Shown piece after piece: positions 15,143 through 32,634 of a stretch of DNA of 33,925 nt. Location: assembly GCA_018302505.1 (NCBI GenBank), contig JAGVZL010000020.1, positions 659 to 34,583 of the forward strand, read 5' to 3'. Origin of the DNA: Candidatus Woesearchaeota archaeon (lineage in GTDB: Archaea > Nanobdellota > Nanobdellia > SCGC-AAA011-G17 > ARS1403). The position numbers and the translations under genes are program-made. Each line of letters opens with the position of its first letter. The first letter of the stretch is position 1. The notes beneath the pieces are model-generated. The model made no database searches. It saw only the letters and a program-made list of their open reading frames with translations, and was not told the origin of the DNA.

Positions 15143-16444
15143 ATGTATAAAAGAGGATTATTATTTTTACTAGTATTTATTATATTCTTGCAAAGTAGTT
15201 TAGCTCAAGATTCATGTTTAGCAGTATCTCAAAATCCGAGTGAAGAGCAATTAAATCAATTAATTACTGAATCAGCCACAAGAATTTGGAATGTTTATTC
15301 TCAAATACCAAAATATTCTGGAAACAATAATGAAATTTTTAAAGCAGCATTAATTGGTTTGGAAAACTGGGAGCCAGAGCCAAAATATGCAATATTAGCA
15401 AATTATAAGGAAAGAATAGCAGATGAATTGAGAATACTAGCAGGAGTATCTGGAAGCTGTATAGATAATTATTCTCTAAATGCAAAAGATGGTTACCTGA
15501 ATGGGGTTAAATTAAACACAAATGAGTATGTTATATCTGGCGAAGTGATTGATATTTACAATGAGGTCACAGGTCATCAAACAACAAGGATTTACGGAAT
15601 GTACACACCTGAGCAAAGTCCTTTTCTCGTAGATTTTTACAAAGGTCCATTCATTGAGGGATTAATGTCAAGGACTGATTTTTCTTCATCACAATCGGAT
15701 TGCTTTTACACCCTTTTCTCAACAGAGGGCAATGTAATACTGAGAGATGACACACCAGAGTCTATTTTTAGTCATGTTATTTTTCATGAAAGAGTGCATT
15801 ACCAAATAAGCCTTTTAGATTCCACAAGTCAAAGAATATTAGAAGAGGCGAAAGAAATATTTATTGAGTGGATGATTAATCAGAAAGAAGAAGTGCTAGG
15901 GGTAAATGCAGAAACAAAAGAGACCACCGCTCTAACTCGTTCATTTTTTGAAAAAAATATTCCTAATGGACAATTAAGATTTGATATACAACACGGTAGT
16001 TGGACTGAATTCTATGCTGGGCTTGGTGCATGGACCGAACATCCTAAACCGATTGAGGGATTTGATGCTTTAAGAATTTCATACCAATTTAAAATAAGGC
16101 ATCCAGAAGCGGAGGTTATATGGAAACAAGTTTTTAATAGTGTTAGAGAAGGTTGGGTTGAAAAAAGAGAGTGCATTGATATTTACTATTTAGATAATGG
16201 TTATGACTGTCGAGATGAGTCTGCTTTATGTATCGAAGGTGGGTGTGTTGAAGAAAATTCAGCAATATCCCATTTAGAGAACATTTTATTAGATCCAAAC
16301 CAATCAGAAGAACTGAAAAAAAATGCAGTAATTGCTTTGGTAAATCTTGGGGAACTTCAAATATTAAGAGATGTATTTGACTATCAAAATTCAGATTCAA
16401 TTAGAAGGCTGATAGGAAGATTTACCCAGAGAACGGATAAATAA
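15143..16444 (+). CDS. Secreted modular protein with HExxH zinc metallopeptidase domain
   Basis: The 433-aa protein has a signal peptide (residues 1-21, LLFLLVFIIFLQSSLAQ). A conserved N-terminal module (22-110) is nearly identical to that of the protein at 22478. A central domain (about 115-340) contains FHERVHYQ, a zinc-binding HExxH at 215-219, with E238 or E289 as possible third ligand. A Cys-rich linker (CIDIYYLDNGYDC...CIEGGCV, 344-369) and a short HEAT-like helical end follow. CID-Y-L appears both before and after the peptidase domain, as if that domain had been inserted into a module that is continuous in the paralogue. A TATA-like ATTATATATAAT lies 22-33 nt upstream. It probably acts outside the cell. 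Confidence 0.75.
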   Translation: MYKRGLLFLLVFIIFLQSSLAQDSCLAVSQNPSEEQLNQLITESATRIWNVYSQIPKYSGNNNEIFKAALIGLENWEPEPKYAILANYKERIADELRILAGVSGSCIDNYSLNAKDGYLNGVKLNTNEYVISGEVIDIYNEVTGHQTTRIYGMYTPEQSPFLVDFYKGPFIEGLMSRTDFSSSQSDCFYTLFSTEGNVILRDDTPESIFSHVIFHERVHYQISLLDSTSQRILEEAKEIFIEWMINQKEEVLGVNAETKETTALTRSFFEKNIPNGQLRFDIQHGSWTEFYAGLGAWTEHPKPIEGFDALRISYQFKIRHPEAEVIWKQVFNSVREGWVEKRECIDIYYLDNGYDCRDESALCIEGGCVEENSAISHLENILLDPNQSEELKKNAVIALVNLGELQILRDVFDYQNSDSIRRLIGRFTQRTDK

Positions 16445-16457
16445 TTTCTATAAACTC

Positions 16458-16500
16458 TCATTTATCCTTATCAATTCCATTTTTAATTATCGGGCAATCC
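16458..16500 (-). pseudogene. Decayed copy of enolase 3' end (copy A)
   Basis: TCATTTATCCTTATCAATT followed by TTAATTATCGGGCAATCC matches the 3' end of the enolase gene on the same strand (25774-25797 and 25833-25850) with about 35 bp missing between the blocks. Read on the minus strand it gives CPIIK then ELIR-like codons. It lies 14 nt after the secreted metallopeptidase gene. Confidence 0.65.
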
Positions 16501-16561
16501 AAGAAGTAGCATCTTAATGTCTATCCTAAAATTTATATACAAATTAAAGCTGTTATTTACT

Positions 16562-17098
16562 ATGAAATATCCAAAATTTTCTATATTTTTCATAACAATC
16601 ATAATAGCATATATTATCTTCATAAATCAGGAATCTGTAATAATGCAAAACACATTATTTTCTTTAGGATTATTAGGCTCTTTTATCTCGGGAATATTAT
16701 ACGCATACAGCTTCACATCTGCAATAGCAACATCAACACTGCTAATTTTAGGGCAAAGTAATATTATAATAACAGGATTGATAGCGGGATTAGGCGCGTT
16801 ATTTGGGAATGTAATTATCTATAAATTCATTAATCATTCTTTTGATGATGAGATAAAGAAGCTTTCAAAGGAGAAAATAATAATAAAAATAAATAATTCA
16901 GTAAATAAAGATTTCAGAAAATATATTCTCCCTGTCTTGGCAGTCATAGTTATAGCATCGCCATTGCCTGACGAGGTAGGGGTTGCATTATTAGTCGCCT
17001 CAAAAAAAGTGATACCGCCAAAATACGCATATATTTTATTTTATCTTATAAGCACGATGGGAATATTTGTAATCTTAATCATAGGGCATAATATCTAA
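16562..17098 (+). CDS. Small integral membrane protein
   Basis: The 178-aa protein has about five hydrophobic segments: residues 8-24, 35-55, 62-85, 125-150 and 160-178. The stretch VIVIASPLPDEVGVALLVASKK resembles the proline-containing re-entrant loop of DedA/VTT-like membrane proteins, but the match is too short to assign. The frame is open from 16517. ATG 16562 is preferred because TATA-like TTTATATAC (about 16531-16539) lies 22-31 nt upstream. The P-type ATPase gene begins 1 nt after its stop, so the two are probably cotranscribed and it may assist ion or membrane homeostasis. The specific role is unknown. Confidence 0.75.
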   Translation: MKYPKFSIFFITIIIAYIIFINQESVIMQNTLFSLGLLGSFISGILYAYSFTSAIATSTLLILGQSNIIITGLIAGLGALFGNVIIYKFINHSFDDEIKKLSKEKIIIKINNSVNKDFRKYILPVLAVIVIASPLPDEVGVALLVASKKVIPPKYAYILFYLISTMGIFVILIIGHNI

Positions 17099-17099
17099 A

Positions 17100-19730
17100 A
17101 TGGAATATTATCAACAAAAATCAGAAGAAGTAATAAAAGAACTAAATAGCTCTCCATTAGGATTATCTTCAAAAAAAGTTAAGACTCTTTTTAAAAAATA
17201 CGGGGTTAACGAGATAAGAAAAACAAAGCATTTTTCAAAATTAAAAATTTTCTTAAGACAGTTTCTGGATCCATTAGTTTTGATCTTAATTATAGCAGTT
17301 ATATTATCTTTGCTAGTTCAAGTATTTGAAAGTAATGAGTCATTAAAACCTGAAGAAACTTATAATTCTATTTTCATAGGCATAATCATTATCCTAAATG
17401 CATTATTAGGTTTTGCTCAGGAATTTAAAGCTGAAAAATCTATTGAACTGCTCCAAAAACTATCCAATCCAAGAGCAAATGTTTACAGAGATGGAAAACT
17501 TAAACAAATAGATTCTAAAGATCTAGTTCCTGGAGATATTATAGAAGTAAATGCAGGAGATAAGATAAGTGCAGATGCAAGAATTATAACCTGCGACTCT
17601 TTACAAACAGATGAATCCTTGCTTACAGGGGAATCAACCACAGTTTCAAAAACAGCTCTTCCAATATTAAAAAAAGTAAGCTTGGCAGATAGAACTAATT
17701 TATTATTTTCAGGAACAACAGTAACACAAGGCAAGGCAAGGGCAGTAGTATTTGCAACCGCTATGAAAACTGAGATGGGAAAAATAGCTTCTCTAGTCCA
17801 AAGCGTTGAAGAGTCAAAAACCCCCATGCAAAAGCGTTTAGCCTATTTAGGTAAATGGCTCGGAATATCAGTCATTACAGGATCACTCATTATAACAGTA
17901 GTTGGCTTAATCCATAAACAACCCTTAATTGAAATGCTGTTAGTCGGAGTTTCTTTAGCAGTATCAGCAATTCCTGAAGGTTTGCCAGCGGTAATAACAG
18001 TGACTTTAGCACTATCAGTAAATTCTATGGTAAAAAGAAAAGCATTAGTAAAAAAACTTAAAGCAATAGAAACCTTAGGGAATATTTCAATTATTTGCAC
18101 TGACAAAACAGGAACTTTAACTAAGAATGAAATGACGGTCTCTGAATTATATGTAAACTTACAATCCATAAAAGTAACAGGATATGGTTTCTCAACAAAA
18201 GGTTCTTTCTTATTAAATAATAAAAAAATAAATCCAAAAGAATTTTCTTTATTGTTGGAAGCGGGAGCAAGTTGTAATAACGCATCATTACCGAATATAG
18301 GTGACCCTACAGAAATAGCCTTGCTAATCTCTGCGGCAAAAGCGAATATTAAAAAAATAGAATATAGACTTAGCGAAACTCTATTTAATTCTGAAAGAAA
18401 ATATATGGCGACAGAGCATAAGATAAACTCCAAAAAAATTTCATATATTAAAGGTGCTCCTGAAGAAGTTTTGAAATTATGTAATTTTATACAAATAAAA
18501 AATAAGATACTTCCTTTATCTGGATATAAAAAAGATATCTTAGAAAAAAGTTCAGAGATGGCAAAAAAAGCATTAAGGGTATTGGCAATGGCTTATGAAG
18601 AAAATAATAAAACTATTTTTTTAGGTTTGCAGGGTATGATAGACCCGCCAAGAAAAGAAGCTAAAAGCTCAATTGAATTATGCAAAGATGCGGGAATAAG
18701 AGTTATTATGATTACCGGAGACCATAAATTAACTGCAAAAGCAATAGCAAATGAATTAGGAATTAAAGGTGAAGTTATAGATGGAAATGAAATGGATAGA
18801 TTATCCGATTCTCAGTTAAAACAAGCCTTAAAATCAGTAAATATTTTTGCAAGAGCATCTCCCCAGCATAAAGTTAGAATATTAACAATCCTGCAAAAAC
18901 AGAAGCAAGTAGTTGCCATGACTGGCGATGGAATAAATGATGCACCAGCATTAAAACAGGCCGATGTTGGAGTAGCGATGGCCATTAAGGGAACGGATAT
19001 TGCAAGAGAAGCATCGGATATGGTATTATTAAATGACAATTTTTCATCCATAGTTAACGCAATCCAGCATGGTCGTGTTGTTTATGAGAATATTAAAAAA
19101 TTTTTAAGGTATTTATTATCTGTAAATCTATCTGAATTAGTTCTAATCTTATTCACAATATTAGTTAACCTGCCGCTTCCGTTACTGCCTTTGCAGATCT
19201 TATGGATTAATTTAGTAACAGACGGATTGCCTGCTCTGGCATTAAGTGTAGAAAAGCCTGATAAAGATATAATGAAAAGAAAACCGAGAAATCCTGATGA
19301 AAGCATTTTCGCCGGAATAAAATATCATCTATTTTTCGGAACTTTATTCCTTTTCACTTCTTCATTAATAGCATTTTTATTATTTTTAGATGATTTGACA
19401 AAAGCCAGAACCATGGCTTTATCTGTCAGTATATTATATCAAATGTTTTTCGTTTTTACTTGCCGTTCAAATGAAAGTCTATTCAAAATAGGTTTTTTCA
19501 CAAATAAAAAATTATTTTACGCTGTTTTGGCAACAATAGCATTACATGCATTATTGATGTATTCACCAATAGGTTCTATCTTTTCTATGTCTCAGTTAAA
19601 TTTATCAGAATGGGTTACAGTAATTTTATTGGCATCAACTGGATTAATAGTATTTGAAATATTTAAACTGTTTAACCCTAGAAAAAATTATTTTTTTAGA
19701 TTATTCAGATACTTTTCTAAATCCTTATAA
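17100..19730 (+). CDS. P-type cation-transporting ATPase (Ca2+ type, class II)
   Basis: This 876-aa protein has all P-type landmarks: an N-terminal cation-ATPase domain, TGES at about 176-179 (actuator), PEGLP at 292-296 in TM4, CTDKTGT with phosphorylated Asp335, a nucleotide-binding region with KGAPEEV, MITGDHKLTAKAIA, TGDGINDAPALKQADVG near 608-624, and a C-terminal six-helix membrane domain including LPLQILWINLVTDGLPALALS. The full length and TM4 PEGLP point to class IIA/IIB, SERCA/PMR1-like Ca2+ (possibly Mn2+) pumps. It follows a small membrane protein by 1 nt. Its last 43 nt overlap a convergent RelE-type toxin gene. Confidence 0.95.
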   Translation: MEYYQQKSEEVIKELNSSPLGLSSKKVKTLFKKYGVNEIRKTKHFSKLKIFLRQFLDPLVLILIIAVILSLLVQVFESNESLKPEETYNSIFIGIIIILNALLGFAQEFKAEKSIELLQKLSNPRANVYRDGKLKQIDSKDLVPGDIIEVNAGDKISADARIITCDSLQTDESLLTGESTTVSKTALPILKKVSLADRTNLLFSGTTVTQGKARAVVFATAMKTEMGKIASLVQSVEESKTPMQKRLAYLGKWLGISVITGSLIITVVGLIHKQPLIEMLLVGVSLAVSAIPEGLPAVITVTLALSVNSMVKRKALVKKLKAIETLGNISIICTDKTGTLTKNEMTVSELYVNLQSIKVTGYGFSTKGSFLLNNKKINPKEFSLLLEAGASCNNASLPNIGDPTEIALLISAAKANIKKIEYRLSETLFNSERKYMATEHKINSKKISYIKGAPEEVLKLCNFIQIKNKILPLSGYKKDILEKSSEMAKKALRVLAMAYEENNKTIFLGLQGMIDPPRKEAKSSIELCKDAGIRVIMITGDHKLTAKAIANELGIKGEVIDGNEMDRLSDSQLKQALKSVNIFARASPQHKVRILTILQKQKQVVAMTGDGINDAPALKQADVGVAMAIKGTDIAREASDMVLLNDNFSSIVNAIQHGRVVYENIKKFLRYLLSVNLSELVLILFTILVNLPLPLLPLQILWINLVTDGLPALALSVEKPDKDIMKRKPRNPDESIFAGIKYHLFFGTLFLFTSSLIAFLLFLDDLTKARTMALSVSILYQMFFVFTCRSNESLFKIGFFTNKKLFYAVLATIALHALLMYSPIGSIFSMSQLNLSEWVTVILLASTGLIVFEIFKLFNPRKNYFFRLFRYFSKSL

Positions 19731-19984
19731 TCTTTTTTTCTTTCCAATAAGCAAATTAAAATTATATTCGGTTCAATCACAGCGTAAATTAATCTCATAT
19801 CATTAGATTGTATTCTTAATCTAACTCTAAAAATCCTTGAATAAGATTTAGTATGCAGTTTTTTAAATCTAAAAGGGTTTTCTTTTATTAGTTGAATTTT
19901 CCCCTCTATTATCCTTTTAGATTTTTTATCTAAATTTATTACTTGTTCATTAAATTTTTCAAGAGCTTTAATTTTATAGGTCAT
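19688..19984 (-). CDS. RelE/ParE-superfamily toxin
   Basis: The 98-aa basic protein begins MTYKIKALEKFNEQVINLDKKSKRIIEGKIQLIKENPF and has the RelE/ParE fold signature RLRIQSNDMRLIYAVIEPNIILICLLERKKDYKDLEKYL. RelE-type members cut mRNA on the ribosome; ParE-type inhibit gyrase. The C-terminal pattern R-x-L-Y...LERKKDY fits RelE-like interferases better. It overlaps the upstream RHH antitoxin gene by 4 nt, the standard antitoxin-toxin operon. The 3' end runs 43 nt into the P-type ATPase gene on the other strand, so the convergent transcripts would be complementary there. Confidence 0.9.
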   Translation of the reverse strand: MTYKIKALEKFNEQVINLDKKSKRIIEGKIQLIKENPFRFKKLHTKSYSRIFRVRLRIQSNDMRLIYAVIEPNIILICLLERKKDYKDLEKYLNNLKK

Positions 19985-20232
19985 TCTCTTAATACTTTCA
20001 TTACTTCCTCTTCAGAAACAAGTTTTCCTTTTTTTATAGAAACTTCTAATAACTTCTCTATTAACTCAACCTCTTTTTCGCTAAATGTCTCATCGTATTC
20101 ATTCTTCTCAAAAACCTTTTCCCTAATGCTTTCAGTTGCTAATTCCTGTATATTCCTAAACCCGAAATTTTCAACATAATTATTAGCAGCTTTTAATAAG
20201 TTATCAGGTAATTTTAAATTAATTTGTTTCAT
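19981..20232 (-). CDS. Ribbon-helix-helix antitoxin
   Basis: The 83-aa protein begins MKQINLKLPDNLLKAANNYVENFG, the beta-strand and first helix of a ribbon-helix-helix DNA-binding domain, then IQELATESIREKVFE (second helix) and an acidic C-terminal region with EKEVELIEKLLE that would wrap the toxin. It overlaps the RelE-type toxin by 4 nt. Three 10-bp repeats cover the promoter just upstream (20234-20263), a plausible autoregulatory operator for the RHH dimer or complex. Confidence 0.9.
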   Translation of the reverse strand: MKQINLKLPDNLLKAANNYVENFGFRNIQELATESIREKVFEKNEYDETFSEKEVELIEKLLEVSIKKGKLVSEEEVMKVLRE

Positions 20233-20233
20233 A

Positions 20234-20263
20234 AGTATCTAGAAATATCTAAAAGTATTTAAA
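20234..20263. promoter_or_regulatory. Three tandem 10-bp repeats at the toxin-antitoxin promoter
   Basis: AGTATCTAGA, AATATCTAAA and AGTATTTAAA follow each other without gaps. The last contains the minus-strand TATA-like TTTAAATACT, so bound protein would cover the promoter. One-turn spacing suits RHH dimers bound side by side. The site also contains the near-palindrome TAGAAATATCTA (20240-20251). Confidence 0.55.
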
Positions 20264-20271
20264 CTTTACTA

Positions 20272-20865
20272 CTAATTTTCATCATCGAATTCTTCTAAAG
20301 TAGCTTTCAGTTCTCCCAATCCTCTTAATTTCAAATACTCTTTGGCTAATATGTAGAATAATAATCCTAAAGATTTCTTCCCTTTATTATTGCAGGGCAC
20401 AACCAAATCAACATCATTTGAAGTATTATTAGTGTCGCATAATGCAATTATAGGAACGCCCATTTTGTTGGCATCTCTTACAATATTTCTGTCAGGCCAA
20501 GGATCCGCAACCAATAACATCTTAATTTCTGTAAATTCTTTAGAATCAGGATTAATTAACATTCCAGGACTGTATCTTCCAATTATAACCCTAATCCCTG
20601 TGTGCTTGCTAAATAACTCAACAGCTTTCCATCCATTTTCTCTTCTGCATGCTATTATAATCTCTTCAGTTGCATATCTGGCTAAGAACTTAGAAGCTAT
20701 CCCAATCCTGTCATTTATTTGCTGTACATTTAGTACACTCAAACCATCGGGTCTGATTTTATAAATGAAAGGTGCCATATATTTAGTTTTAAATTTAGTA
20801 CCTATATGCAGTCCAGCTTTCAGATAGTTATCCAATGGAACCAATAGTTGTTCTTCTTCTGCCAT
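20272..20865 (-). CDS. rps2: Small ribosomal subunit protein uS2
   Basis: The 197-aa protein matches archaeal uS2: [77 protein letters not shown], and [32 protein letters not shown]. It lies on the solvent side of the 30S neck. In archaea rps2 normally sits right after eno. Here eno is about 4.9 kb upstream on the same strand, separated by accessory genes, which is consistent with insertions into an original eno-rps2 pair. Confidence 0.97.
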
Positions 20866-20883
20866 AGAAAAATTAAACTAAAA

Positions 20884-21213
20884 TTAGTGTTTATAAAGCT
20901 TATTATTAAACTTAATCGATATCTCATTCGGCTTTAAATCAAATTTTAATTTCTCTCCCTTGTTAATTCCATATATCTCCTCAGCTATTTTCGGAATTCT
21001 AAAAACCTTGCTTTTGCCTAATACACCAACAGTAACAGTTAGAGATTTCTTACTTTCCTTTAATTTATTATATTGCAGGATGGGTTGGATATCTTCTTCA
21101 TCATAAATGACCTCTTTACAGCCATTGCATTTCCACGCATCTATCTCAAACCCATAGAATTTGTCTTTTATCTTTTCCATATCCTTATTGCAATTAAAAC
21201 AATGCATTTTCAT
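20884..21213 (-). CDS. YgiT-type zinc finger plus AbrB-like antitoxin
   Basis: The 109-aa protein has an N-terminal zinc finger (CFNCNKD...WKCNGCKEVIYDE, two CxxC pairs within residues 5-35) like YgiT/MqsA antitoxins. A C-terminal swapped-hairpin AbrB/SpoVT-like DNA-binding segment follows (KVFRIPKIAEEIYGINKGEKLKFDLKPNEISIKF, about 70-105), where MqsA would have an HTH. The arrangement suggests an antitoxin that binds its toxin and its own promoter. The start ATG 21213 lies inside the 3' end of the frameshifted partner gene (21194-21479), toxin first and antitoxin second. Family calls are by motif only. Confidence 0.75.
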   Translation of the reverse strand: MKMHCFNCNKDMEKIKDKFYGFEIDAWKCNGCKEVIYDEEDIQPILQYNKLKESKKSLTVTVGVLGKSKVFRIPKIAEEIYGINKGEKLKFDLKPNEISIKFNNKLYKH

Positions 21214-21479
21214 TTTTACCTTCTCTTATATTAAACCTTCCGAGATGGATTAGTAGGAAATAACTTCCACAATCCGCTACAACAGCTTTAAAGACTTCTT
21301 TACCTTTCTTTATACATTTCTCTAATACATTTTGCTTTTCTTTTGGATGTTGAACAATCATACCCATTTTTTAATATCTCTAAAACATCCCACAAATCTT
21401 TCTTAAGATGCCACATTTCTTCAGATGCATTTTTAGTCGCATTTATTCTCTTATTTTGATATTTTGGGAATCCATTCAT
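21194..21479 (-). pseudogene. Frameshifted small toxin-like gene upstream of the YgiT/AbrB antitoxin
   Basis: ATG 21479 begins MNGFPKYQNKRINATKNASE and continues MWHLKKDLWDVLEILKNGYD to KAKCIREMYKER, where TAA at 21300-21302 stops it. A shift of one base near 21315-21320 (reading GAA TGT for GAA ATG) restores ...KCIRECIKKGKEVFKAVVAD, then CGSYFLLIHLGRFNIREG, ending at 21194. The restored protein of about 94 aa overlaps the antitoxin by 20 nt, and I recall this pattern from archaeal genes paired with YgiT-type antitoxins. It is either inactivated or a sequencing indel. A TATA-like GGTTTATATAT lies about 33-42 nt before the start. An upstream in-frame ATG at 21533 would precede that TATA box and is unlikely. 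Confidence 0.65.
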
Positions 21480-21480
21480 T

Positions 21481-21511
21481 GATATCACTACGTCCAAAAA
21501 AAAGATATCAC
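21481..21511. promoter_or_regulatory. Repeated GATATCAC operator candidate
   Basis: GATATCAC occurs at 21481-21488 and 21504-21511, 23 bp apart (about two helical turns). The copies lie between the TATA-like element (about 21512-21521) and the start codon of the frameshifted toxin gene, a natural place for an AbrB-type antitoxin to bind. Confidence 0.45.
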
Positions 21512-21598
21512 CATATATAAACCTTACCATCAAAAAATTATAGAAATTTAATATAAAAATAAAAAAATAAAAGATTTATTACTCAGTTGAGAACCAAC

Positions 21599-21637
21599 CT
21601 AGTATTTACTTTTCTTCTTACTTTTTTTAGCAGCCAT
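21599..21637 (-). CDS. Candidate 12-aa basic microprotein
   Basis: ATG GCT GCT AAA... encodes MAAKKSKKKSKY and stops at TAG. AGGTGG, a good Shine-Dalgarno, ends 4 nt before the ATG, and a TATA-like CATATATAC (minus strand, about 21671-21679) lies 34-42 nt upstream. An AT-rich U-run terminator-like tract on the minus strand covers about 21552-21572. The promoter, ribosome-binding site, ORF and terminator form a coherent small unit. Alternatively this is only a leader. Confidence 0.4.
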   Translation of the reverse strand: MAAKKSKKKSKY

Positions 21638-21709
21638 TATTCCACCTCTTTTTTTTTGAAATTTGATAAAGTATATATGTTGAACTAGTTTATTAACTTA
21701 TTGATATTT

Positions 21710-22381
21710 TTAGAAATTTCTTAATAAATCCTTTACCCATTTCTCAGCATCTTTTCTTAACCCGAATCCCAAACCTATTCCCAATGCTAAAGCAACACCG
21801 ACGGATAAAGCAGCTAATACTAATAAAAATGCATTCTCCAAAATTCCAACTTCAATTCCAATTTGCTTAAATGCAATTATAGCAACCATAAAAACAATAA
21901 TCCATTTTAAAATTTTAGTTATTATAGAAACTCCTTTTACCGTCGAGCTTTGATTAATTTTTATTTCAATATAATGAGCGAATATCATTCCGAAAATTAA
22001 GATTACAACACTCAAGATTAAATTAGGCAGCCATCTCACAAACCCTTCTAAAACTCTGCTTAATGTTCCTAAACTAATTTTGTCGACGGCAGCTTGCAGG
22101 AAAACTATAAATATATACCATTTTAATATTTCTCCTAAGATGCTTGATAAATGTGTTTTTCCGATAGCTTTGGATAATTCGGCTTTCTCAATTTGTCTGT
22201 CTACTCCCGCTTTATTTAAAATTAATTTTAAGAAATGACCTAAAACCGCACCGAAGATATAACCAATAACTAATAATAATATAACAGCAATTAAATCTGG
22301 AAAGAATTTTAAGAAACTAATCCACAAAGATTCAAACGGGGTTCTAATCGCAATTACAGTTTCTAAAACTCCATTAGCCAT
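21710..22381 (-). CDS. Conserved TM-helix (mechanosensitive-channel-like) membrane protein
   Basis: The 223-aa protein has five or more TM segments with repeated helices of the TM_helix/CmpX type: FPDLIAVILLLVIGYIFGAVLGHFLKLILNKAGVD and LPNLILSVVILIFGMIFAHYIEIKI. It closes with the Gly/Ala-rich pore-like stretch LAALSVGVALALGIGLGFGLRKDAEKWV, which resembles the MscS TM3 region, but the MscS beta domain is absent. It probably forms or modulates a membrane channel. AAGGTGATT upstream of ATG 22381 is a good Shine-Dalgarno. It diverges from the secreted caspase-like gene. Confidence 0.8.
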   Translation of the reverse strand: MANGVLETVIAIRTPFESLWISFLKFFPDLIAVILLLVIGYIFGAVLGHFLKLILNKAGVDRQIEKAELSKAIGKTHLSSILGEILKWYIFIVFLQAAVDKISLGTLSRVLEGFVRWLPNLILSVVILIFGMIFAHYIEIKINQSSTVKGVSIITKILKWIIVFMVAIIAFKQIGIEVGILENAFLLVLAALSVGVALALGIGLGFGLRKDAEKWVKDLLRNF

Positions 22382-22477
22382 TTAATCACCTTTCATAAAA
22401 TATATATCAAATTCTTTATATAGTTTTCTATAAATTTTAAGATAATTTTATATAAACTAAACTTCATTATTTTTAAT

Positions 22478-24079
22478 ATGCTTAAAAGAGGATTGTTGTT
22501 TTTATTAGTATTTATTATATTTTTAGATTATGGTTTAGCTCAAGATTCTTGCTTAGCAGTCCCTCAAAATCCAAGTGAAGAGCAGCTCAATCAATTAATT
22601 ACTGAATCAGCTGCAAGAATTTGGAATACTTATTCTCAAATACCAAAATACTCTGGAGACAATAATGAAATTTTAAAAGCAGCATTAGAAGGATTGGAAA
22701 ATTTGGAGCCAAAGCCAAAATATGCGATATTAGCAAATTATAAGAAAGAGATAGGGGATGAATTGAGAAGGATTTCAAGTGGAGGAAGTTGTATAGATGA
22801 TTATTCATTACATGAAACGGACGACTGCTGGAATCAGGATGCTTTATGTGTAGAAGATAGGTGTGTTAAGTTTGAAAATTTAGGTTGGCGGGAAGAAGTT
22901 TTGGATAATATTAATAAACTAAGAGACCAAAATCCCTATGCCAGGCATAGTGCTGCACTTAAACTAACGGAAATTGCTCCACTGGAAGCAGTTCCGGTTT
23001 TGATAAAAACATTGGAAAGAGATCTAGGTGAGGATATACAAAATTTAATCTTGATTACATTGAAACAAATAGCATCCCAGGAAGCAGTTCAAGCTTTGAG
23101 AAGGGTATCTGAAAATGACCCCAATCCTTTTTTAAGAGAATCTGCAAAACTTTTGTTAGCATCTCTCACTCCAACACAAACCCTCGAATTATTAAGAGGG
23201 GAACCATTATTTGAAAGGATATATACAAATCAAAAGTTATCTGGTTTCTCTCCAACAGAAAAAAATTCAATATCAATTTCAGTTTACAGGTACCTATTAA
23301 AGAGAGGGAGTAGTGCTATAGACTTTGAAATAGAGAATACAATTGATTTTATTCTAGATAAAAGAAGGGTTTTTGAAAACGAAGCAATCTTTGGAGATGA
23401 TAAATATGTGATTGTATTTAGTCATGAAGATCCTCAAATGCAACCAGAACCAATAAAAGAATTTGCAAGAGATCGAGGAGTCACAAGATTCCCCACTATA
23501 ACTCCATTAAAAGGATATGCATCAAAAACAGATATAATAGATACTATTGTAAACAGCAAAACATATGGAGAAACTGTAATATGGTCCCAAACACATGGAT
23601 TGCCGGATTATATCTGCCTAAGAGAAGATGAAAACATTATTGGTGAAGAATCTTGTTTTGGATTTAGATATGATGAGTATGTAGACATTTTATTGCAAAG
23701 AGGAAGCTTAGACGAAATTATTTTGATAATTGATTCTTGCTTTAGTTACGATTTTGCAGAGCAACTTTTAGAGGATTTATCTAGAAAAAATAGTCCTTCT
23801 TATCCAGTTATAATTACAGTATCGAATAAGGGAAGACTTGGATATCCAGTATTCTTAAGTTCCTTAAGGAGATTATATCTTAGGGACAATGAACAATTAT
23901 TAGGTAGCCATATTTATAGAGCAGAACAATATAGTTTTAACAAACAAGATTCTGCAGTTTTCTTTTCAGAGAATAATAATCCTCCACTAGAAATAGCAAT
24001 GAATTCTTTAAATCCTTCTGAATGTGGATGTACAGAAGATTCCTGTCCAATAGAACCAGTTCAAGGAACAACATCTTAG
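22478..24079 (+). CDS. Secreted modular protein with HEAT repeats and caspase-like domain
   Basis: This 533-aa protein has a signal peptide (1-21) and an N-terminal module (22-108) differing at only about a dozen positions from the protein at 15143. A Cys-rich linker (CIDDYSLHETDDC...CVEDRCV) is followed by HEAT-like repeats at about 135-230 (ARHSAALKLTEIAPLEAVPVLIKTLE, LITLKQIASQEAVQALRRV). A C-terminal domain (about 300-490) carries a caspase-type dyad: VIWSQTHGLPD (His373) and LIIDSCFSYDF (Cys421), spaced 48 residues as in C14/C13 peptidases. It ends in a Cys-rich tail (CGCTEDSC). TATA-like TTTTATATAAAC lies about 22-32 nt before the ATG. A secreted cysteine endopeptidase is inferred. Confidence 0.75.
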   Translation: MLKRGLLFLLVFIIFLDYGLAQDSCLAVPQNPSEEQLNQLITESAARIWNTYSQIPKYSGDNNEILKAALEGLENLEPKPKYAILANYKKEIGDELRRISSGGSCIDDYSLHETDDCWNQDALCVEDRCVKFENLGWREEVLDNINKLRDQNPYARHSAALKLTEIAPLEAVPVLIKTLERDLGEDIQNLILITLKQIASQEAVQALRRVSENDPNPFLRESAKLLLASLTPTQTLELLRGEPLFERIYTNQKLSGFSPTEKNSISISVYRYLLKRGSSAIDFEIENTIDFILDKRRVFENEAIFGDDKYVIVFSHEDPQMQPEPIKEFARDRGVTRFPTITPLKGYASKTDIIDTIVNSKTYGETVIWSQTHGLPDYICLREDENIIGEESCFGFRYDEYVDILLQRGSLDEIILIIDSCFSYDFAEQLLEDLSRKNSPSYPVIITVSNKGRLGYPVFLSSLRRLYLRDNEQLLGSHIYRAEQYSFNKQDSAVFFSENNNPPLEIAMNSLNPSECGCTEDSCPIEPVQGTTS

Positions 24080-24171
24080 TTTAATTTCTCTTTAATTCTT
24101 TTTTCATCAGCACATTCTCTGCATGCAAATTTCTTATTACCATGCTGTTTCTGTGAAGCTTTGCAAGAAGA
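24076..24171 (-). pseudogene. Remnant of a small zinc-ribbon gene
   Basis: A minus-strand frame with no start codon reads CKASQKQHGNKKFACRECAD then KRIKEKLN and stops at 24076-24078. The CxxC pair and basic helix look like the end of a small zinc-binding protein. It is bounded upstream by a stop at 24172-24174 and overlaps the last 4 nt of the caspase-like gene. It appears to be a decayed fragment. Confidence 0.45.
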
Positions 24172-24553
24172 TCATTTAAAAATTCCTATAGCAAGAGAAA
24201 CCCTATATCTTCCTTATAATGAAGGTCTGTTTTCTATTAAAATACTAAATGGAGTTGAAACTATTGGATTTTTGTCAGTAGCAGGTTTATTATGTAATAA
24301 TGATAGATTATGCCAAGGAAATGAAACATTTGTTAGTTGTTCTTCTGATTGCAGTTCTTATGAAAAAGATGGTATTTGTATGAATATTAAAGATGGTCAA
24401 TGTGATCCTGATTGTAGTAAAGGTCAAGATTTTGAATGTGAAAGAAATCTTCCTCAATTAAATACAAAAAATAATGGTCTAAAATATTCATTATATGGTT
24501 TATTAGGGGTAGTTATCTTATATCTGATTTATAGAAATCTAAAGAAATCATAA
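24161..24553 (+). pseudogene. C-terminal fragment of a Cys-rich secreted or surface protein with TM anchor
   Basis: The frame has no ATG at its beginning (only TTG 24161). It reads a Cys-rich region (CNNDRLCQGNETFVSC, CSSYEKDGICMNIKDGQCDPDC) of the type found in archaeal surface proteins, then a C-terminal TM helix (YSLYGLLGVVILYLIYRNLKKS). Such proteins normally have a signal peptide and a large ectodomain in front. Both are missing here and the upstream DNA is a zinc-ribbon remnant on the other strand. It is therefore probably a truncated gene. A rare TTG-started short membrane protein is possible. No promoter is obvious. Confidence 0.6.
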
Positions 24554-24668: not shown

Positions 24669-25454
24669 ATGGAAATAATAAGTAAAATAAGTAAGGGAAC
24701 AAAAATGGACCAAATATATATACCTAAGAATAGACCAGGTTTAGATATTGGAACTTATGTAAAAATAATACCGATAGAAGAAACGATAATAAAAAGGCCT
24801 TATTTCTATAATATAAAAGAAATTGAACCCATTAAATTGGAATTAGTAAATAAAATTTTTAATATTATAGAAACTTCAATAACCTACGAAAATATTATCA
24901 TATCCGGCTCTTTCTTAGAAAAAGGGTTCAGTTTTAACGATATAGATGTTCTATTGATAAAAAATGAAAAATTAAATGAAAAAGGACTCCAAGCCAAGTT
25001 AGAAAACCAATTAAAAATTGAAATGCATTTAATACATATGACTGAAGGCGAATTCAGAAAAGCATTAGTAATAGATCCTATATGGAGGTTAGTAACAAAT
25101 AAATGTATGGCTATAAAAAGGATTCCACCATTGCCTACCCCGAAATTAAATTATAAGTATTTAGATTTGCAGCAGTTAAAAAGTGAATTATTAATAATAA
25201 ATTTTGACTATTCAAGCGGAAATGAAAAATATAAATGGACAAGGAATCTAATGGCTATTTATTTGTTTATAAAAAACAAAAAATTAACAAAAGAAAATAT
25301 AGAAAAAGAAATAGAGAGAAAATTTAATCTAAAAATAGAAGATATTAAAAATAACATTGTAGAAAAAGAGTTTTTAAGAAAATATAAAGAATTTTATAAA
25401 AAATTTGAAAAAGAAATAATAAAAAATGCCGCAAAACAGGAAAAAATTAATTGA
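24669..25454 (+). CDS. AbrB-like domain fused to nucleotidyltransferase (MNT-type)
   Basis: The 261-aa protein begins with a swapped-hairpin AbrB/SpoVT-like segment (ISKGTKMDQIYIPKNRPGLDIGTYVKIIP, residues 7-36). Next is a Pol-beta-type nucleotidyltransferase domain with IIISGSFLEKGFSFNDIDVLLI, that is G80-S81 and the Asp91/Asp93 metal ligands. A helical C-terminal half (about 150-261) follows. The third catalytic acid is not obvious. A perfect palindrome lies between TATA and ATG, suggesting autoregulation. The end overlaps the next gene by 29 nt. MNT domains often pair with HEPN-type or other helical partners, so a toxin-antitoxin-like or RNA-modifying role is possible but unproven. Confidence 0.7.
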   Translation: MEIISKISKGTKMDQIYIPKNRPGLDIGTYVKIIPIEETIIKRPYFYNIKEIEPIKLELVNKIFNIIETSITYENIIISGSFLEKGFSFNDIDVLLIKNEKLNEKGLQAKLENQLKIEMHLIHMTEGEFRKALVIDPIWRLVTNKCMAIKRIPPLPTPKLNYKYLDLQQLKSELLIINFDYSSGNEKYKWTRNLMAIYLFIKNKKLTKENIEKEIERKFNLKIEDIKNNIVEKEFLRKYKEFYKKFEKEIIKNAAKQEKIN

Positions 25455-27295: not shown

Positions 27296-28864
27296 ATGCT
27301 CAAAAAAAGAGGGTTGATTTTAATACTTATATTATTAGTTTTAGTTAATCCTGTAGATTCTGCTCCAAGAAGTGCAACTGTAATTGAAGATACTCCTCCA
27401 TCTTCTTATCTTTCATGCAGCGATGGAACAAGATTTGCAGCCTGTAAAGAAGGAACTAACCTATTCTGCAGCAATCAAAATATTATCTTAAACAGCGGTT
27501 TTGAATCAGACTCAAATCAAGATGGTATTCCAAATTTATTTTCTCCAGATCCAAATGCTATTCTAGGAACTGATTTATTAATATCTCAGGATTCTTTGGC
27601 AGGTTTAAAATCAATATTAATAACAAAACAATGGGCGAGCTTTGATTATCAAGCCTCATTAGGAGCAACAGTTTTGCAGCCATCTACAGATTATGTTTTC
27701 TTCTCTTTTGTTAAAGGAACTTGTGATAATCTAAGGGTTTATTATAGCCAGCAGCAAACAGGATCAGCTAATGAATTGTGCGGCTCTAGCAGAGTTTGTA
27801 CTTTAATCCCAATTGTAAATGGATGGTCTAGGTTAGTAACTCAATTCAGTTCAGATGAAATAGTAACAACAATCCCTCAGGGGAATGTGCAGGTTCCAAT
27901 TATTCAAAATTTAAGAGTGGAATGTGCTGACTCAACACTATTTGAATTGTTTATAGATAATATGCATCTTCAGCCTTTAAATGCCCCTCCTCAATTAATT
28001 GAAAATTGCCAAATCTGCAGCTCTTGTTCTAATGGATTATTTTGTGCACCTGATGGAAGTTGTGTTTCAGATTTATCGAGATTTTATACAGACGAAGAAT
28101 TAATGGAAAAATGCATAGCAGAAAATAATTTTGCTTTATGCGAAAGAATTCAGGATGCAGCTAAAAAGCCAATAGCATTTAATCAATTCGCAGTCGAAAA
28201 TAATGATATTACAAAATGCCAGGATGTTATTTGCGAGCAGTCTGTTTTATATTTTTCTTGTTTAGATCAGGGAAGGGCTAACTGCAATGAAGAGATATTC
28301 CAAAATTATGAGATAAATCCCAGTTTCAAAACAGGAAGAAAAATTTATGTTAGAGACAATAAAGATGAAAATGAATTAAAAAGATATGAGTTTAGCGGGG
28401 ATAATTTTGATGAAGTTAGATGCGATATTCATGTTCAAGAAAGAAAGGTGGGATCATTTTCATTTGACACAGTAAAAGATGAATTTTGGTGTGGGGTAAA
28501 TGCCGGAACAATAGTTAATCATAATGAAGGAAATAGTTTTTGGGATTATATATCAAATAAAGAATGTGAAAATTCGGCTTTTGCATCATGCACACAAGGT
28601 TCTTCATTACTTTGTTTTGATGTATTAAAACAATCTTTCGGATCGGTAATTAATAGGATAAAAGATTGCAACGATTCAAATTGTGAATTATTAACTCCCG
28701 GACAACCAAACGGAGAATTGCCTCTAAACACTCCAAAGACAGATTTGTTGTGCGGTTATAATGATAAGTGGTATTTATGTGATAGGGATGGAATTCAAGA
28801 ATTTAGCAATGGAGAAAGATTCTTGTGTAATAGTGCTACAGGAACATGGATAAGATTAAATTAA
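27296..28864 (+). CDS. Large secreted Cys-rich protein with carbohydrate-binding-like module
   Basis: The 522-aa protein has a signal peptide (1-22, LILILILLVLVNPVDSA). Residues about 60-230 (IILNSGFESDSNQDGIPNLF ... LFELFIDNMHLQP) look like a jelly-roll carbohydrate-binding module: they begin with NxGFE, and the last strand has the xxFxxDNxxL pattern. Paired cysteines (ICSSCSNGLFCAPDGSCV near 240-258 and many later) suggest an extracellular disulfide-bonded protein. No catalytic motif is seen. Its end overlaps the next gene by 19 nt, so the pair is cotranscribed. TATA-like TTTATATAAAA lies about 24-34 nt before the ATG. A surface or secreted adhesin is likely. Confidence 0.7.
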   Translation: MLKKRGLILILILLVLVNPVDSAPRSATVIEDTPPSSYLSCSDGTRFAACKEGTNLFCSNQNIILNSGFESDSNQDGIPNLFSPDPNAILGTDLLISQDSLAGLKSILITKQWASFDYQASLGATVLQPSTDYVFFSFVKGTCDNLRVYYSQQQTGSANELCGSSRVCTLIPIVNGWSRLVTQFSSDEIVTTIPQGNVQVPIIQNLRVECADSTLFELFIDNMHLQPLNAPPQLIENCQICSSCSNGLFCAPDGSCVSDLSRFYTDEELMEKCIAENNFALCERIQDAAKKPIAFNQFAVENNDITKCQDVICEQSVLYFSCLDQGRANCNEEIFQNYEINPSFKTGRKIYVRDNKDENELKRYEFSGDNFDEVRCDIHVQERKVGSFSFDTVKDEFWCGVNAGTIVNHNEGNSFWDYISNKECENSAFASCTQGSSLLCFDVLKQSFGSVINRIKDCNDSNCELLTPGQPNGELPLNTPKTDLLCGYNDKWYLCDRDGIQEFSNGERFLCNSATGTWIRLN

Positions 28865-31395
28865 TACTTTGGAGTTTTGTATTTATAATTCTCATAAATA
28901 GTTCTTTAGCTACGGAAATATCAGGAAGAATAATTGATGAAGAAGGAAATTCAATGCGGGGGGTAGCTGTTGTAGTAGAAGGCACTGAAATAGGCACAGT
29001 TACAGATGATGATGGTTGGTTTTTATTAGGAGGCGTACCTTCTGGGGAATATACCTTAAGAATTACCCATCTTTCTAAGGAGCTAAAAATAACAAGAAAT
29101 ACAAATTTACCAATAGTGATAACTTTTGAATCAATAACCCTTCCTGTAACTACAGTTACGGATAAGCGGCCCGAGTTACAGCCGGTTATAGGATTATCAA
29201 CACTCTCTACTGAATTATATGGAAATTGTCTTGTTTGTTTAACTAATCCTTTATCCCTTAGACAAAATGATGTTCTTAGTATAGAAGGAGGTGAAAGCGT
29301 TTATGATGATGGAGAAACTTTAGAGTCAATCCCACCTGAATCCATGAAATGGTATTTTGGGGTTCCTAAAGAGGATTTTGATGAAATCTTAGCAACAAGA
29401 GAAGAATTATTTTATTCAGATTTAAATCATTTATTAGATAATTTCCAATCCGATTATCCCGGATTAGTCAGAGAAGGAACAGATAGCTTCGAAATAAATT
29501 ATCTTGAAGAGTTATATTCAGGAAGGTATTATGCTGTCTTAAAAATAACTAATCCTCATGACATTTTCGAAGAAACAATTACTTGGCATCAGTTTAATCT
29601 ATATCCTTCTACTGCATCAGATGAAGAATTATCAAGAGGAGAAACAACAGTAAGCCAGATTTCATCTTATGAAGGTTCGTTCAACCCAAATGATTTTCCA
29701 TCATGTAATCAACCGCAACCATCAGGAGCAATATGCTATAATGGAAGATGGGTCCCGCCATTAGTCAGTTCTTGGAACTGTCAGGAAAGCGATGGTTTTC
29801 CAGGAAGTCAGGTTTATAACAATCCAACAATTTCAAGCGGCTGTAGAGTTGGAGAGATAATTCAAAGAGACACATGCGGCTGTTTGGATCAAGATGCAAT
29901 CTTTACAACAGATTGCTCGCAAGGTTTTTCTCGTGTGGCAGAATATAGCTGCAGCAAGGATTGCAAAAATCCAACAATAAAGGAATGCCAGGATGGAACG
30001 CAATGCATCATAGGAAGGGATGGAGGTGCATGCAAAACTCCAAATTTTGAAAATTTGGAAAGTGTTCCAGGAATAGATTATGGTTTATTTCAATATCCTC
30101 TAGAGCTTTCAGAGGAAGAAATAACAATAATTTTAACAGATAATGACTTAATAAATTCAGCATTTTGTGATTCATTAGGAATAGACTTGTCAACTTTGGA
30201 AGTAGTTGAATCCACTCCAACAGCTTCGGTAATAAAACAAATAACAGGATTTTTCTCAAAAATAACTGGAAAGCAGACAGCTTTATCAGTAACTAGAAGA
30301 GAATATCATCAGAAATTAACAACAGATGCTTATTCAGAGCTTGCAAACATCAGGGCTTATATACCAGTAGTTTATTTTAACGAGAATGGAGCACGATCAC
30401 CCCAGAGAAAAGCAAAAATCCTAGACAGAAAAGTAGGAAGTGCATTGTTAAAGACTTATGGATTAGAAAGAAATAATAATTTAGATGCTTTAATTGCTTC
30501 AAAGCAGAGATTAGGAGAGCATTCAATCAGCGGGCAAGGAATAATAATTAGAGAAAGAACATCAATAACAGGATCAGAAGAAGAAGGGTTTGTAACTAAG
30601 ATAGCTCCCTTTGACTATTCTCTTTTTGCAGGCATACCTGAAATACAGACTAGCAGGTTTAAAGATTTAACATTTATTTTAGTAGAAGCAAGAGAAGATA
30701 ATTATTTTGAGATAAACAGCAGGATTTACTCAGTTTCAAAAGGGCTTTACTTAGTTCCATATCCAATCAATGAGGGTTTAAGATACAATTTAATTAGTGA
30801 TCCAAGTGAAGTAGACATGGAATTAAGGACATATTATGAAATTGCATTCGAAATCCAAAGCAGGAAATTCGATGTTGGAGTTGAAACAAAAGAAGAATTC
30901 GGATTCTGCACAACAATAGCAAGGGCTTTATCTCTAGAGATAGTATTCCTAACACCGTCTGAAGCTGATTATTTCTTAAGGGATATCCCGCCAACCTTTG
31001 GAGATGATTATAGATTTCCGTCGAAAATATTTACATATATACCGACTAGAAGGACTGATGTCGAATATTTTATAATTCCATTAGGAAAAAATTATGGCGG
31101 CTTCAGAAAGGGATTGTACTTCGTGCCTAAAAGGCCCATTATCTCAATGGATAATGAATACGATCTGAGAACAAGGGCTAATGAAATGCTAGGAATTAAG
31201 CATAAGCCTCCAACTCCAGATGTAGAAATCAGTTATGATACAAAAACCCTAAATAAAATCTTAGCGCTGGAAGCTGAAAAAAGAAGGTTAAAAGGCAGAA
31301 TACCTTGTGTATCTGATCTTAGGGAGATATTAGGAGAACTATTTAGCTATCTAAACAGTTATCGTGCAAAACAGATTGAAAGTGCGGGTTCATGA
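28846..31395 (+). CDS. Very large secreted protein with CarboxypepD_reg-like domain
   Basis: The 849-aa protein has a signal peptide (1-22), then a carboxypeptidase-regulatory-like/Ig-type domain (residues about 23-97, SGRIIDEEGNSMRGVAVVVEGTEIGTVTDDDGWFLLGGVPSGEYTLRI). A Cys-rich middle (about 280-400, for example CSQGFSRVAEYSCSKDCKN) and a C-terminal half of about 400 residues follow. The C-terminal part is repeated in the truncated gene 31969-32634 (FILVEA...IYSVSKGLYLVPY...LRDIP...MDNEY). There is no catalytic motif. It overlaps the 522-aa secreted protein gene by 19 nt, suggesting a two-component extracellular complex. ITGFFSKITGK near 475 resembles a low-complexity motif in DPANN surface proteins, by recollection only. 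Confidence 0.7.
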   Translation: MDKIKLILWSFVFIILINSSLATEISGRIIDEEGNSMRGVAVVVEGTEIGTVTDDDGWFLLGGVPSGEYTLRITHLSKELKITRNTNLPIVITFESITLPVTTVTDKRPELQPVIGLSTLSTELYGNCLVCLTNPLSLRQNDVLSIEGGESVYDDGETLESIPPESMKWYFGVPKEDFDEILATREELFYSDLNHLLDNFQSDYPGLVREGTDSFEINYLEELYSGRYYAVLKITNPHDIFEETITWHQFNLYPSTASDEELSRGETTVSQISSYEGSFNPNDFPSCNQPQPSGAICYNGRWVPPLVSSWNCQESDGFPGSQVYNNPTISSGCRVGEIIQRDTCGCLDQDAIFTTDCSQGFSRVAEYSCSKDCKNPTIKECQDGTQCIIGRDGGACKTPNFENLESVPGIDYGLFQYPLELSEEEITIILTDNDLINSAFCDSLGIDLSTLEVVESTPTASVIKQITGFFSKITGKQTALSVTRREYHQKLTTDAYSELANIRAYIPVVYFNENGARSPQRKAKILDRKVGSALLKTYGLERNNNLDALIASKQRLGEHSISGQGIIIRERTSITGSEEEGFVTKIAPFDYSLFAGIPEIQTSRFKDLTFILVEAREDNYFEINSRIYSVSKGLYLVPYPINEGLRYNLISDPSEVDMELRTYYEIAFEIQSRKFDVGVETKEEFGFCTTIARALSLEIVFLTPSEADYFLRDIPPTFGDDYRFPSKIFTYIPTRRTDVEYFIIPLGKNYGGFRKGLYFVPKRPIISMDNEYDLRTRANEMLGIKHKPPTPDVEISYDTKTLNKILALEAEKRRLKGRIPCVSDLREILGELFSYLNSYRAKQIESAGS

Positions 31396-31818: not shown

Positions 31819-32001
31819 TTATAACTTACTTATGCCGCCAACTATTACAACTAGGTTTTCCCCAAACTCATCTACAAAGATAAAGAAATCATCAAAATTA
31901 ATTATCCCGTTTTCGTCTAAGTCAACTTTAGCATCATAGCCAGCATCCCCCCCGCCCCAGCTCCAAAGTTGACTGCCAGCAGAAGGAAAGCTGTTGAAAA
32001 T
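31819..32001 (-). pseudogene. Remnant with dockerin/EF-hand-like calcium-binding repeat
   Basis: A minus-strand frame of 60 residues without a start codon reads FPSAGSQLWSWGGGDAGYDA then KVDLDENGIINFDDFFIFVD and ends ISKL. D-x-D-x-N-G-x-I-x-F-x-D-F-F is a dockerin-type/EF-hand calcium loop, normally at the C-terminus of secreted proteins. A stop bounds it upstream at 32002-32004. It is probably the decayed 3' end of a former secreted protein. It overlaps the beginning of the frame for the truncated paralogue by 33 bp. Confidence 0.6.
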
Positions 32002-32634
32002 CTAGGAAGTAGTTCAGCCGTTTTAGCAACACTTAACCAATTAACAGATTCAAGAAGTTCATCAGATTATCAAGGTTTAAGCTTCTTATTAGTCCAAACA
32101 TCAGAAAATAAATTCTTCAAAATAGACGGGCAGATATTTTCAGTGTCAAAGGGCGTTTATTTAGTTCATTATCAGCCGGATTATAATGTTGATTATGATT
32201 TAGTTTTAGACCCAACACAGGATAATGATTTAAAAACATATTACGAAGTAGCTTCAAAAATACTTGTTAAATCATTCATAATAAGAGAAGGTATTAGTAT
32301 CAAAGTGCCAATATTAAATCCTTCTGAAGGTCATTATTTGCTTAGAGATATTCCTTCAGTCGAACCGAAATTAGAAACTCAGGAAATAATATACACCTAT
32401 AAAAGAGATAACGAAGTAAGATATAGGATAATTCCTCTTGCGGAATTAGACCAGAGTAAAGATTATGGAACTTATAATGAGGGTCCTTATCTTGTGCCTG
32501 AGAAAAATATAATAGTAATGGATAATGAATACTTTACTCCTAGAAACAATAGACTAAAGCCAAGCTCATCTTATAACATCCCCCTGCCCCCGAAAACAAA
32601 TTTAGTTATAATTTCGCATTTTTCGAGGAAATAA
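31969..32634 (+). pseudogene. N-terminally truncated paralogue of the 849-aa secreted protein
   Basis: The frame begins only with TTG 31969 and lacks a signal peptide. Its residues match the C-terminal third of the protein at 28846-31395: LSFLLVQTSENKFFKIDGQI against LTFILVEAREDNYFEINSRI, FSVSKGVYLVHY against YSVSKGLYLVPY, ILNPSEGHYLLRDIPS against FLTPSEADYFLRDIPP, and MDNEYFTPR against MDNEYDLR. It has no promoter or ribosome-binding site, and its start abuts the dockerin-like remnant. It is most likely a duplicated and truncated copy. The frame is intact for 221 codons, so the truncation may be recent. Confidence 0.7.

Follow-up and report, generated by a model that had tools for sequence, protein, structure and literature searches.

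The locus

The window analysed here is a stretch of 33,925 nucleotides (nt) from a Candidatus Woesearchaeota archaeon (assembly GCA_018302505.1, contig JAGVZL010000020.1, positions 659 to 34,583). Its subject is a pair of genes, P1 and P2, that encode predicted secreted proteins sharing an N-terminal module (the N-module) and carrying different predicted proteases behind it. The source genome (G000), Woesearchaeota-related by lineage, comprises 58 contigs totalling 869 kb, at 86% completeness. The window covers a housekeeping region, in which P1 and P2 are interspersed with genes for ribosomal proteins, RNA polymerase, a Ca-ATPase, S2 and enolase.

P1 (15143..16444; all features described here lie on the + strand) is an open reading frame (ORF) of 433 amino acids (aa). 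It begins with a signal peptide of 22 codons (15143..15208, assigned by reading), the leader DNA of which is common to P2 (80%) and to a third paralogue, P3, which lies on contig C27 of the source genome, carries a HEIGH motif and has a signal peptide 95% identical to that of P1. The N-module (15209..15445) is followed by a first CID tripeptide (15458..15466, residues 106-108) and a predicted gluzincin-like HERxH zincin domain (15500..16165, boundaries approximate), with the HERVH motif at 15785..15799 (residues 215-219) and a predicted third zinc ligand, E289, at 16007..16009. Behind the metallopeptidase, at 16172..16438, come a second CID (residues 344-346), a Cys linker and a short HEAT stub, homologous to P2 from residue 105 onward. 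P2 (22478..24079, an open ORF of 533 aa) has leader DNA at 22443..22544, comprising 35 base pairs (bp) upstream and the signal peptide, an N-module (22544..22774), a Cys-rich linker (CIDDYSL...CVEDRCV, 22790..22867), HEAT repeats (22910..23158; Pfam HEAT_2, E 9.2e-10) and a predicted caspase-like domain (23189..24076, boundaries approximate), in which the predicted catalytic residues are H373 (23594..23596) and C421 (23738..23740); its C-terminal tail occupies 24023..24078.

The N-modules of P1 and P2 are 81% identical (phmmer domain E about 1e-53), and this identity together with a nonsynonymous rate (dN) of 0.12 against a synonymous rate (dS) of 0.42 indicates conserved coding sequence; chance similarity of the two proteins is thereby ruled out. 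The region of P1 after the metallopeptidase aligns with the linker and first HEAT helices of P2 at a local score of 80, where the best of 2000 shuffles reached 51 (BLAST E 2.3e-4). The HEAT stub of P1 is modelled as helices with a predicted local distance difference test score (pLDDT) of 64-81; compared with helical-repeat structures it reached Z values up to 6.8, a level common for helical repeats, and this comparison covered mainly the stub and is silent on the enzyme domain. The initial annotation had described a common signal peptide and N-module, the motif residues just listed, HEAT-like helices in both proteins and a metallopeptidase spliced into a P2-like linker, and each of these descriptions holds, the last also in view of zincin relatives that exist free of the module. 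P1 looks like a P2-type scaffold of module, CID linker and HEAT repeats that gained a zincin by insertion and lost the caspase part and most of the HEAT repeats.

Distribution of the N-module

The N-module comprises about 75 residues with conserved Cys, Trp and Arg positions in the alignment and is predicted to form three helices (pLDDT mostly 74-81 in the P1 model and 49-71 in the P2 model); it has no Pfam family match. In eight genomes of one family-level group it was found, at E below 1e-4, in 12 proteins from five genomes, three of them P1, P2 and P3. Ten of the 12 are rows of the query alignment, the new ones being on G007:C4 and G003:C12. The G003 member is weak by score (E 7.8e-5 in the family search and no match in the order or phylum searches) and is included because its gene order and C-terminus also agree. 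A thirteenth family protein, L086, also from G003, has a divergent N-terminus (its module region is 5-25% identical to that of the others) and retains linker, HEAT repeats and caspase-like domain of the P2 type.

Among 103 genomes of the order, the best E outside the family group was 0.006 (12 rows in other families, E 0.006-0.095, not read one by one), and in a sample of 371 genomes of the phylum, cut at E 0.001, matches occurred in G000 and G001 only. No relatives were found in the viral contigs searched, and a contig search with P2 alone gave no match. Five of 15 rows (G008:C1, G003:C8, G001:C17, G004:C15 and G001:C27) were judged to be chance on reading the ORFs, and one of 13 rows of the family search (G004:C52, E 0.057) was dropped. 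The expectation that the module would recur across archaeal genomes with varied C-termini was therefore borne out for the C-termini, described below, and not for the range: these searches do not support a module widespread in archaea, and it was found in one family-level group only.

Exchangeable cargoes

The C-terminal parts of the family, grouped by BLAST (E 1e-3) and phmmer, fall into seven groups of cargo: (a) the HERxH zincin of P1 and G007_740; (b) HEAT repeats with a caspase-like domain in P2, G001_665, a split gene of G003 and L086; (c) Cys-rich repeats with HELGH in G001_924 and G001_917; (d) M64-like domains in G007_470 and G004_728; (e) the HEIGH protein P3; and two single members with no recognised motif, (f) G001_433 and (g) G007_532. 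A peptidase motif is present in ten of 12 cargoes. G007_470 matches the Pfam M64 family above its cut-off (6.7e-8) and M64 structures in the PDB (4df9, E 1.5e-5); G004_728 matches M64 at 8.5e-5 and 22.3 bits, or 26.3 bits with neighbouring stretches, the cut-off being 26. A distant relationship between groups c and d is possible (phmmer domain E 0.011 around HExGH). The linker and HEAT stub of P1 are common to group b, and G007_740 also has a HEFGH motif. A papain-like stretch of G007_740 is a hint only (Pfam E 0.23; PDB E 0.29 and 1.9), and a TIKI/ChaN-like reading of G001_433, based on its motif, was without support in profile and structure-library searches.

Similar modules precede dissimilar cargoes. 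In P1 and P2 modules at 81% identity are joined to different enzymes; the modules of G007_532 and G007_740 are 82% identical and those of G001_433 and G004_728 65% identical, with no cargo similarity in either pair, and the zincin is common to P1 and G007_740, the modules of which are only 18% identical. A constant module with exchangeable C-termini, as initially proposed, is thus what the family presents, and recombination is supported as the cause.

The same site can also hold different members. On the 5' side of the Ca-ATPase gene, the source genome has P1 between a phosphoesterase gene and that of a 193-aa membrane protein; G003 has a split HEAT-caspase gene, flanked by the phosphoesterase and an ion exchanger; and in G007 the 740-aa zincin/zincin protein precedes an exchanger, the contig ending short of the phosphoesterase. 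Two relic copies of the P2 C-terminal tail, of about 45 codons each, lie in G001 without the remainder of the gene (88.7% DNA identity over 53 bp and 80.9% over 89 bp); a complete cassette was not seen there.

Mosaic structure of the genes

Over 101 bp of leader, 35 of them upstream of the gene, P2 and P3 show 84% identity, whereas identity between their modules is only 33% at the protein and 52% at the DNA level. When P1 and P2 were each compared with P3 and G001_924, the best breakpoint fell after codon 22, the end of the signal peptide (0 of 10,000 permutations); comparison of P2 with G001_924 and G001_665 placed one after codon 95, the end of the module (again 0 of 10,000). A leader-search match on C48, at E 1.9e-6, lies at an unrelated gene and marks the background level.

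Further evidence comes from DNA identity between genomes. The module of P2 is 83.3% identical over 233 bp to that of a gene in G001, which belongs to a different genus of the same family, and the match is confined to the mature module; the Cys-rich partner gene behind P2 is 81.2% identical to G001 over 377 bp. For ten other genes (the 7046 ORF, uS13, uS11, rpoD, eL18, uL13, uS9, the Ca-ATPase, rpsB and a mechanosensitive channel) the best segments between G000 and G001 are 64.9-74.1% identical. The uS4 gene gave a single 65-bp segment at 78.5%, and two further genes of the window, A and B (see below), gave short segments at 69-77%; the comparison covered selected stretches of G001. The leaders behave differently. 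Signal-peptide DNA of G000 is 89.7% identical to G007 over 39 nt and 82.9% identical to G003 over 41 nt, and G000 is nearer to these two genomes than to G001 in rpsB (80.3% and 77.5%, respectively) and in the Ca-ATPase (71.6% and 72.6%); the G000 modules reach at best 71.3% over 108 bp in G007, plus a 28-bp piece at 89%, and have no match in G003. The leader thus tracks the close relatives and the module tracks G001, a conflict that is best explained by transfer and recombination.

On the strength of these DNA comparisons, the family genes are shown to be mosaics of a leader (proximal upstream DNA and signal peptide), an N-module and a variable cargo, with exchange points at the end of the signal peptide and at the end of the module, and some of the pieces have crossed between genera. 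The recombination evidence strengthens the modular interpretation of the predicted proteins.

As a separate observation, an AAA_14/DUF4143 ATPase gene in the window (10447-11877; in G001, L087 5539-6789) is 82.8% identical in DNA between the two genomes over 1329 bp, a higher value than for any of the ribosomal genes in the comparison; a relic P2-type tail directly adjoins the 3' end of the G001 copy.

Predicted catalytic domains and secretion

The His and Cys of the caspase-like domain are invariant in six of six sequences. A profile of this domain matched nine of 371 genomes of the phylum, three of them in the N-module family, and a 376-aa protein from another family provides a bridge to known peptidases: it matches Pfam Peptidase_C14 (5.9e-11), and in the alignment H373 and C421 fall on its HG and DSC motifs. 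P2 has the HG and xxC motifs of Peptidase_C14 (clan CD), the invariant His/Cys pair and a profile that aligns with a C14 protein; it differs in that the direct scan gave no Pfam C14 match, only HEAT families, and in its fusion to HEAT repeats behind a signal peptide. This caspase-like domain also occurs behind another conserved N-terminus in a family of proteins of about 950-1200 aa from other families of the class (L100-L105), two of them in tandem in G228.

In the HERxH family, the H-E-R residues are conserved in 15 of 15 sequences, the last His in 14 and the distal Glu, E289 in P1, in all 15. Twelve of 370 other sampled genomes matched the HERxH profile; ten of the matched loci and one in G050 were read as proteins of 201-393 aa, and the HERxH proteins without an N-module have a lipobox pattern in five of 13 cases. 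P1 shares with gluzincins the HExxH motif and distal Glu, and N-module relatives match the IgA peptidase M64 family (G007_470 and, at the cut-off, G004_728); unlike these, the HERxH domain of P1 has no significant match in Pfam, NCBIfam or the PDB. HERxH metallopeptidase-like proteins are spread over the class (L121-L130, L081-L083), mostly at 200-280 aa; L081, the only one scanned apart from P1 and G007_740, had no significant Pfam match.

No lipobox pattern was found in 13 family proteins, the hydropathy maxima of which past residue 40 are 0.68-1.46, against only 1.47-2.37 by this measure for the probable membrane helices of the partner proteins. Secretion and protease activity of the family are well-founded predictions. 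For the initial assignment of both cargoes as proteases, the invariance of the catalytic residues and a transitive link to Peptidase_C14 give support; the models of both catalytic domains have low pLDDT (see below).

Partner genes

Directly behind P2 lies a gene (24161..24553) that is truncated at its 5' end; it encodes a Cys-rich protein, probably with a membrane helix at the C-terminus, that is about 95 N-terminal residues short of its G001 homologue. Full-length relatives, which consist of a signal peptide, a Cys-rich part and a C-terminal membrane helix, stand directly behind G001_924 and G001_917 (overlapping both) and G007_470 (1 nt gap), all with HExGH/M64-like cargo, so that three of the four M64-like members share this partner. 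A profile search found the neighbour of G007_470 at E 1.9e-4 and a candidate in G005 at 0.11, under a chance match at 0.008. The G005 candidate overlaps an M64 gene that lacks the N-module, and at that E the link is one of layout only. Partner genes were noted at L017 8017-8694, L019 5708-6358, L020 4320-5000 and L059 6266-6832. The partner goes with M64-like enzymes and is truncated behind P2, which indicates that the HEAT-caspase cargo probably replaced an M64-like one at this locus; the Cys-rich protein could be a cognate inhibitor of the M64-like enzymes or their anchor. Among ORFs of at least 45 aa within 900 nt behind the 13 genes, no cognate gene was found behind P1 or P3 and only the truncated membrane protein behind P2, and the remaining module genes have no common gene behind them except the ion exchanger of G003 and G007.

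A second set of candidate partners lies downstream in the window. Protein A (27296..28864), predicted to be secreted, is the first gene of an A-B-module order seen in relatives, and protein B (28846..31395), large and likewise predicted to be secreted, is present in exactly those five of the eight genomes that have the N-module, in G003 only as a 108-residue stretch. B stands directly upstream of an N-module gene in three genomes, the order being A-B-module in G001 and G007 and B-module in G004. In the window, a fragment of a second B gene (31969..32634) follows the intact A-B pair, and the N-module gene that relatives have in this position is missing from 31438-32634. A protein of G003 (L084 3-3674) has a B-like stretch ahead of a caspase-like domain, and domain exchange of this kind may extend to B. 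Asp-rich repeats that resemble dockerins by eye occur in predicted secreted proteins, one of them a subtilase (L085 3735-4658, L087 8643-10820, L084 5568-8939 and L020 1203-3458); a Pfam scan did not confirm a dockerin in them.

Function and alternatives

We consider the genes to belong to a modular family of secreted, mostly protease-bearing proteins, in which the module docks the enzymes outside the cell, probably for use against proteins of a partner or prey, and give this interpretation a probability of roughly 60%. The proteins would leave the cell by the Sec route, and removal of the signal peptide would place the N-module at the free N-terminus, where it could serve to dock the enzyme, the large secreted A/B proteins being the likeliest partner; M64-like cargoes would bring their own membrane-anchored Cys-rich partner, as anchor or inhibitor. 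The lineage would thereby display interchangeable proteases outside the cell, with proteins of a partner or prey as their probable targets, in contact, attack or amino-acid supply. Frequent exchange of cargo fits a changing target. We accordingly read the N-module as the part by which surface proteases dock; both the docking on a surface platform and the deployment against other cells we infer.

Several observations weigh against this interpretation or parts of it. The models of the P1 HERxH and P2 caspase-like domains have pLDDT under 50 over nearly their whole length, a single sequence being available there (the aligned rows covered the N-module only), and PDB profile searches with both domains found no convincing relative, the matches to designed Pizza6 repeats (best E 0.0011) being repeated 22-residue chance matches. 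Two of the 12 cargoes, G001_433 and G007_532, have no protease motif. Signal peptides were assigned by reading N-termini, and the N-terminus of G001_665 is unusual. Module and cargo agree in G001_924 and G001_917 (62% and 33%), and there is no strong conflict between them in P2 and G001_665 (39% module, 45% cargo) or in G007_470 and G004_728 (48% and 28%). The breakpoint test was weaker for G007_740 (69 of 10,000 permutations, at a point inside the signal peptide), and rate differences between segments can mislead this maximum chi-square test. That the module docks to A/B is inferred from co-occurrence in eight related genomes and gene order in three; exact co-occurrence of B and the module would arise by chance once in 56 if independent, and these genomes are related. 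All genomes compared are draft assemblies.

A more specific form of the docking interpretation holds that the N-module is a DPANN-specific delivery or docking domain heading a polymorphic system of protease effectors. Shuffling of leaders, modules and proteases between lineages would change how each archaeon attacks or feeds on its partner cell, with A/B as delivery platform and the Cys-rich protein as cognate inhibitor or anchor of M64-like cargoes; taken as a whole this is tentative and rather unlikely. The polymorphic secreted effector family proposed in the initial annotation stands as to modular exchange and recombination, and falls short in that the family is not spread through archaea.

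The genes could instead encode ordinary paralogous extracellular peptidases that scavenge nutrients, with a short accessory domain and routine recombination and no role between cells, which we regard as unlikely. Ten of the 12 cargoes with a peptidase motif would suit amino-acid scavenging by so small a genome (869 kb), the module is under purifying selection (dN/dS about 0.28 between P1 and P2), and none of P1, P2 and P3 is followed by an intact cognate gene; however, cross-genus pieces above ribosomal DNA identity, different members at the Ca-ATPase site and relic tails suggest a turnover faster than that of housekeeping peptidases. In polymorphic toxin systems a constant N-terminus is joined to C-terminal domains swapped by recombination, peptidases among them (PMC3482391). 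The N-module family, with its constant N-terminus and exchanged C-termini, resembles them, and a strict system of this kind, in which the module would be a trafficking domain that takes a killing C-terminus to or into a target and a cognate gene would confer immunity, could draw on the relic C-terminal tails, an AbiEii toxin-antitoxin gene nearby in G001 and the cargo-linked membrane protein behind three M64-like module genes, possibly also behind the G005 M64 gene (E 0.11), with its truncated copy behind P2. This seems quite improbable, since no common gene lies behind P1, P3, G001_433, G007_532, G001_665, G004_728 and L086 (an ion exchanger follows G007_740 and the G003 gene), P3, G007_532 and G004_728 end 1-6 nt from a gene on the opposite strand, and Pfam and NCBIfam scans recognised no known delivery or trafficking domain beyond the Sec-type signal peptide. 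The family further differs from polymorphic toxins in that most members have no cognate gene behind them, the cargo is mostly peptidase-like, there is an extra breakpoint at the end of the signal peptide and the range is a single archaeal family. Archaeal polymorphic toxin loci, for which a role in conflict has been proposed and among which DPANN were surveyed, were recognised by colicin D and PD-DExK nuclease domains (PMC6393860), and these domains were absent from the Pfam matches of 12 family members scanned.

That the module is a pro-domain or intramolecular chaperone, which would keep the enzymes inactive until export, agrees with its position near the mature start, ahead of the catalytic part, in the aligned proteins; yet the same module precedes metallopeptidases, cysteine peptidases and two cargoes with no motif, and relatives of the zincin and caspase-like domains occur in genomes where the module was not found, so this is very improbable. 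Docking remains our preferred account of the N-module. In enzyme sets of the cellulosome type one small docking domain, the dockerin, is carried by many enzymes; the N-module differs in having no Pfam match, and its scaffold partner is a proposed one.

Lysis of a host by a DPANN archaeon (PMC11291902) and predatory traits in Woesearchaeota (PMC9723730) have been reported, and no description of the N-module family was found in the titles or abstract openings of open-licence PMC literature on Woesearchaeota and DPANN proteases and toxins. Little is understood of how DPANN archaea affect other cells, and the family offers a compact, testable set of candidates: predicted secreted enzymes marked by one short domain, and proposed surface partners. 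It includes several protease-like families with no Pfam match, namely the HERxH zincin found across the class and an exported HEAT-caspase-like family. The breakpoints and the above-ribosomal DNA identity between genera indicate that the evolution of modular effectors by exchange extends to very small archaeal genomes, and the module-swapped predicted proteases point to a rapidly changing set of tools with which these archaea would act on other cells or scavenge protein from them.

Neighbouring genes

Several neighbours, namely the RelE/RelB-like and AbrB-like proteins, uS4, uS13, eL18, uL13 and the 193-aa membrane protein, were named by inspection only. Toxin-antitoxin-like genes occur among the N-module genes: AbiEii was identified by Pfam in G001 (L018 9015-15055), and RelE/RelB-like and nucleotidyltransferase-like genes were noted by inspection at 19688-20232 and 24669-25454 of the window.

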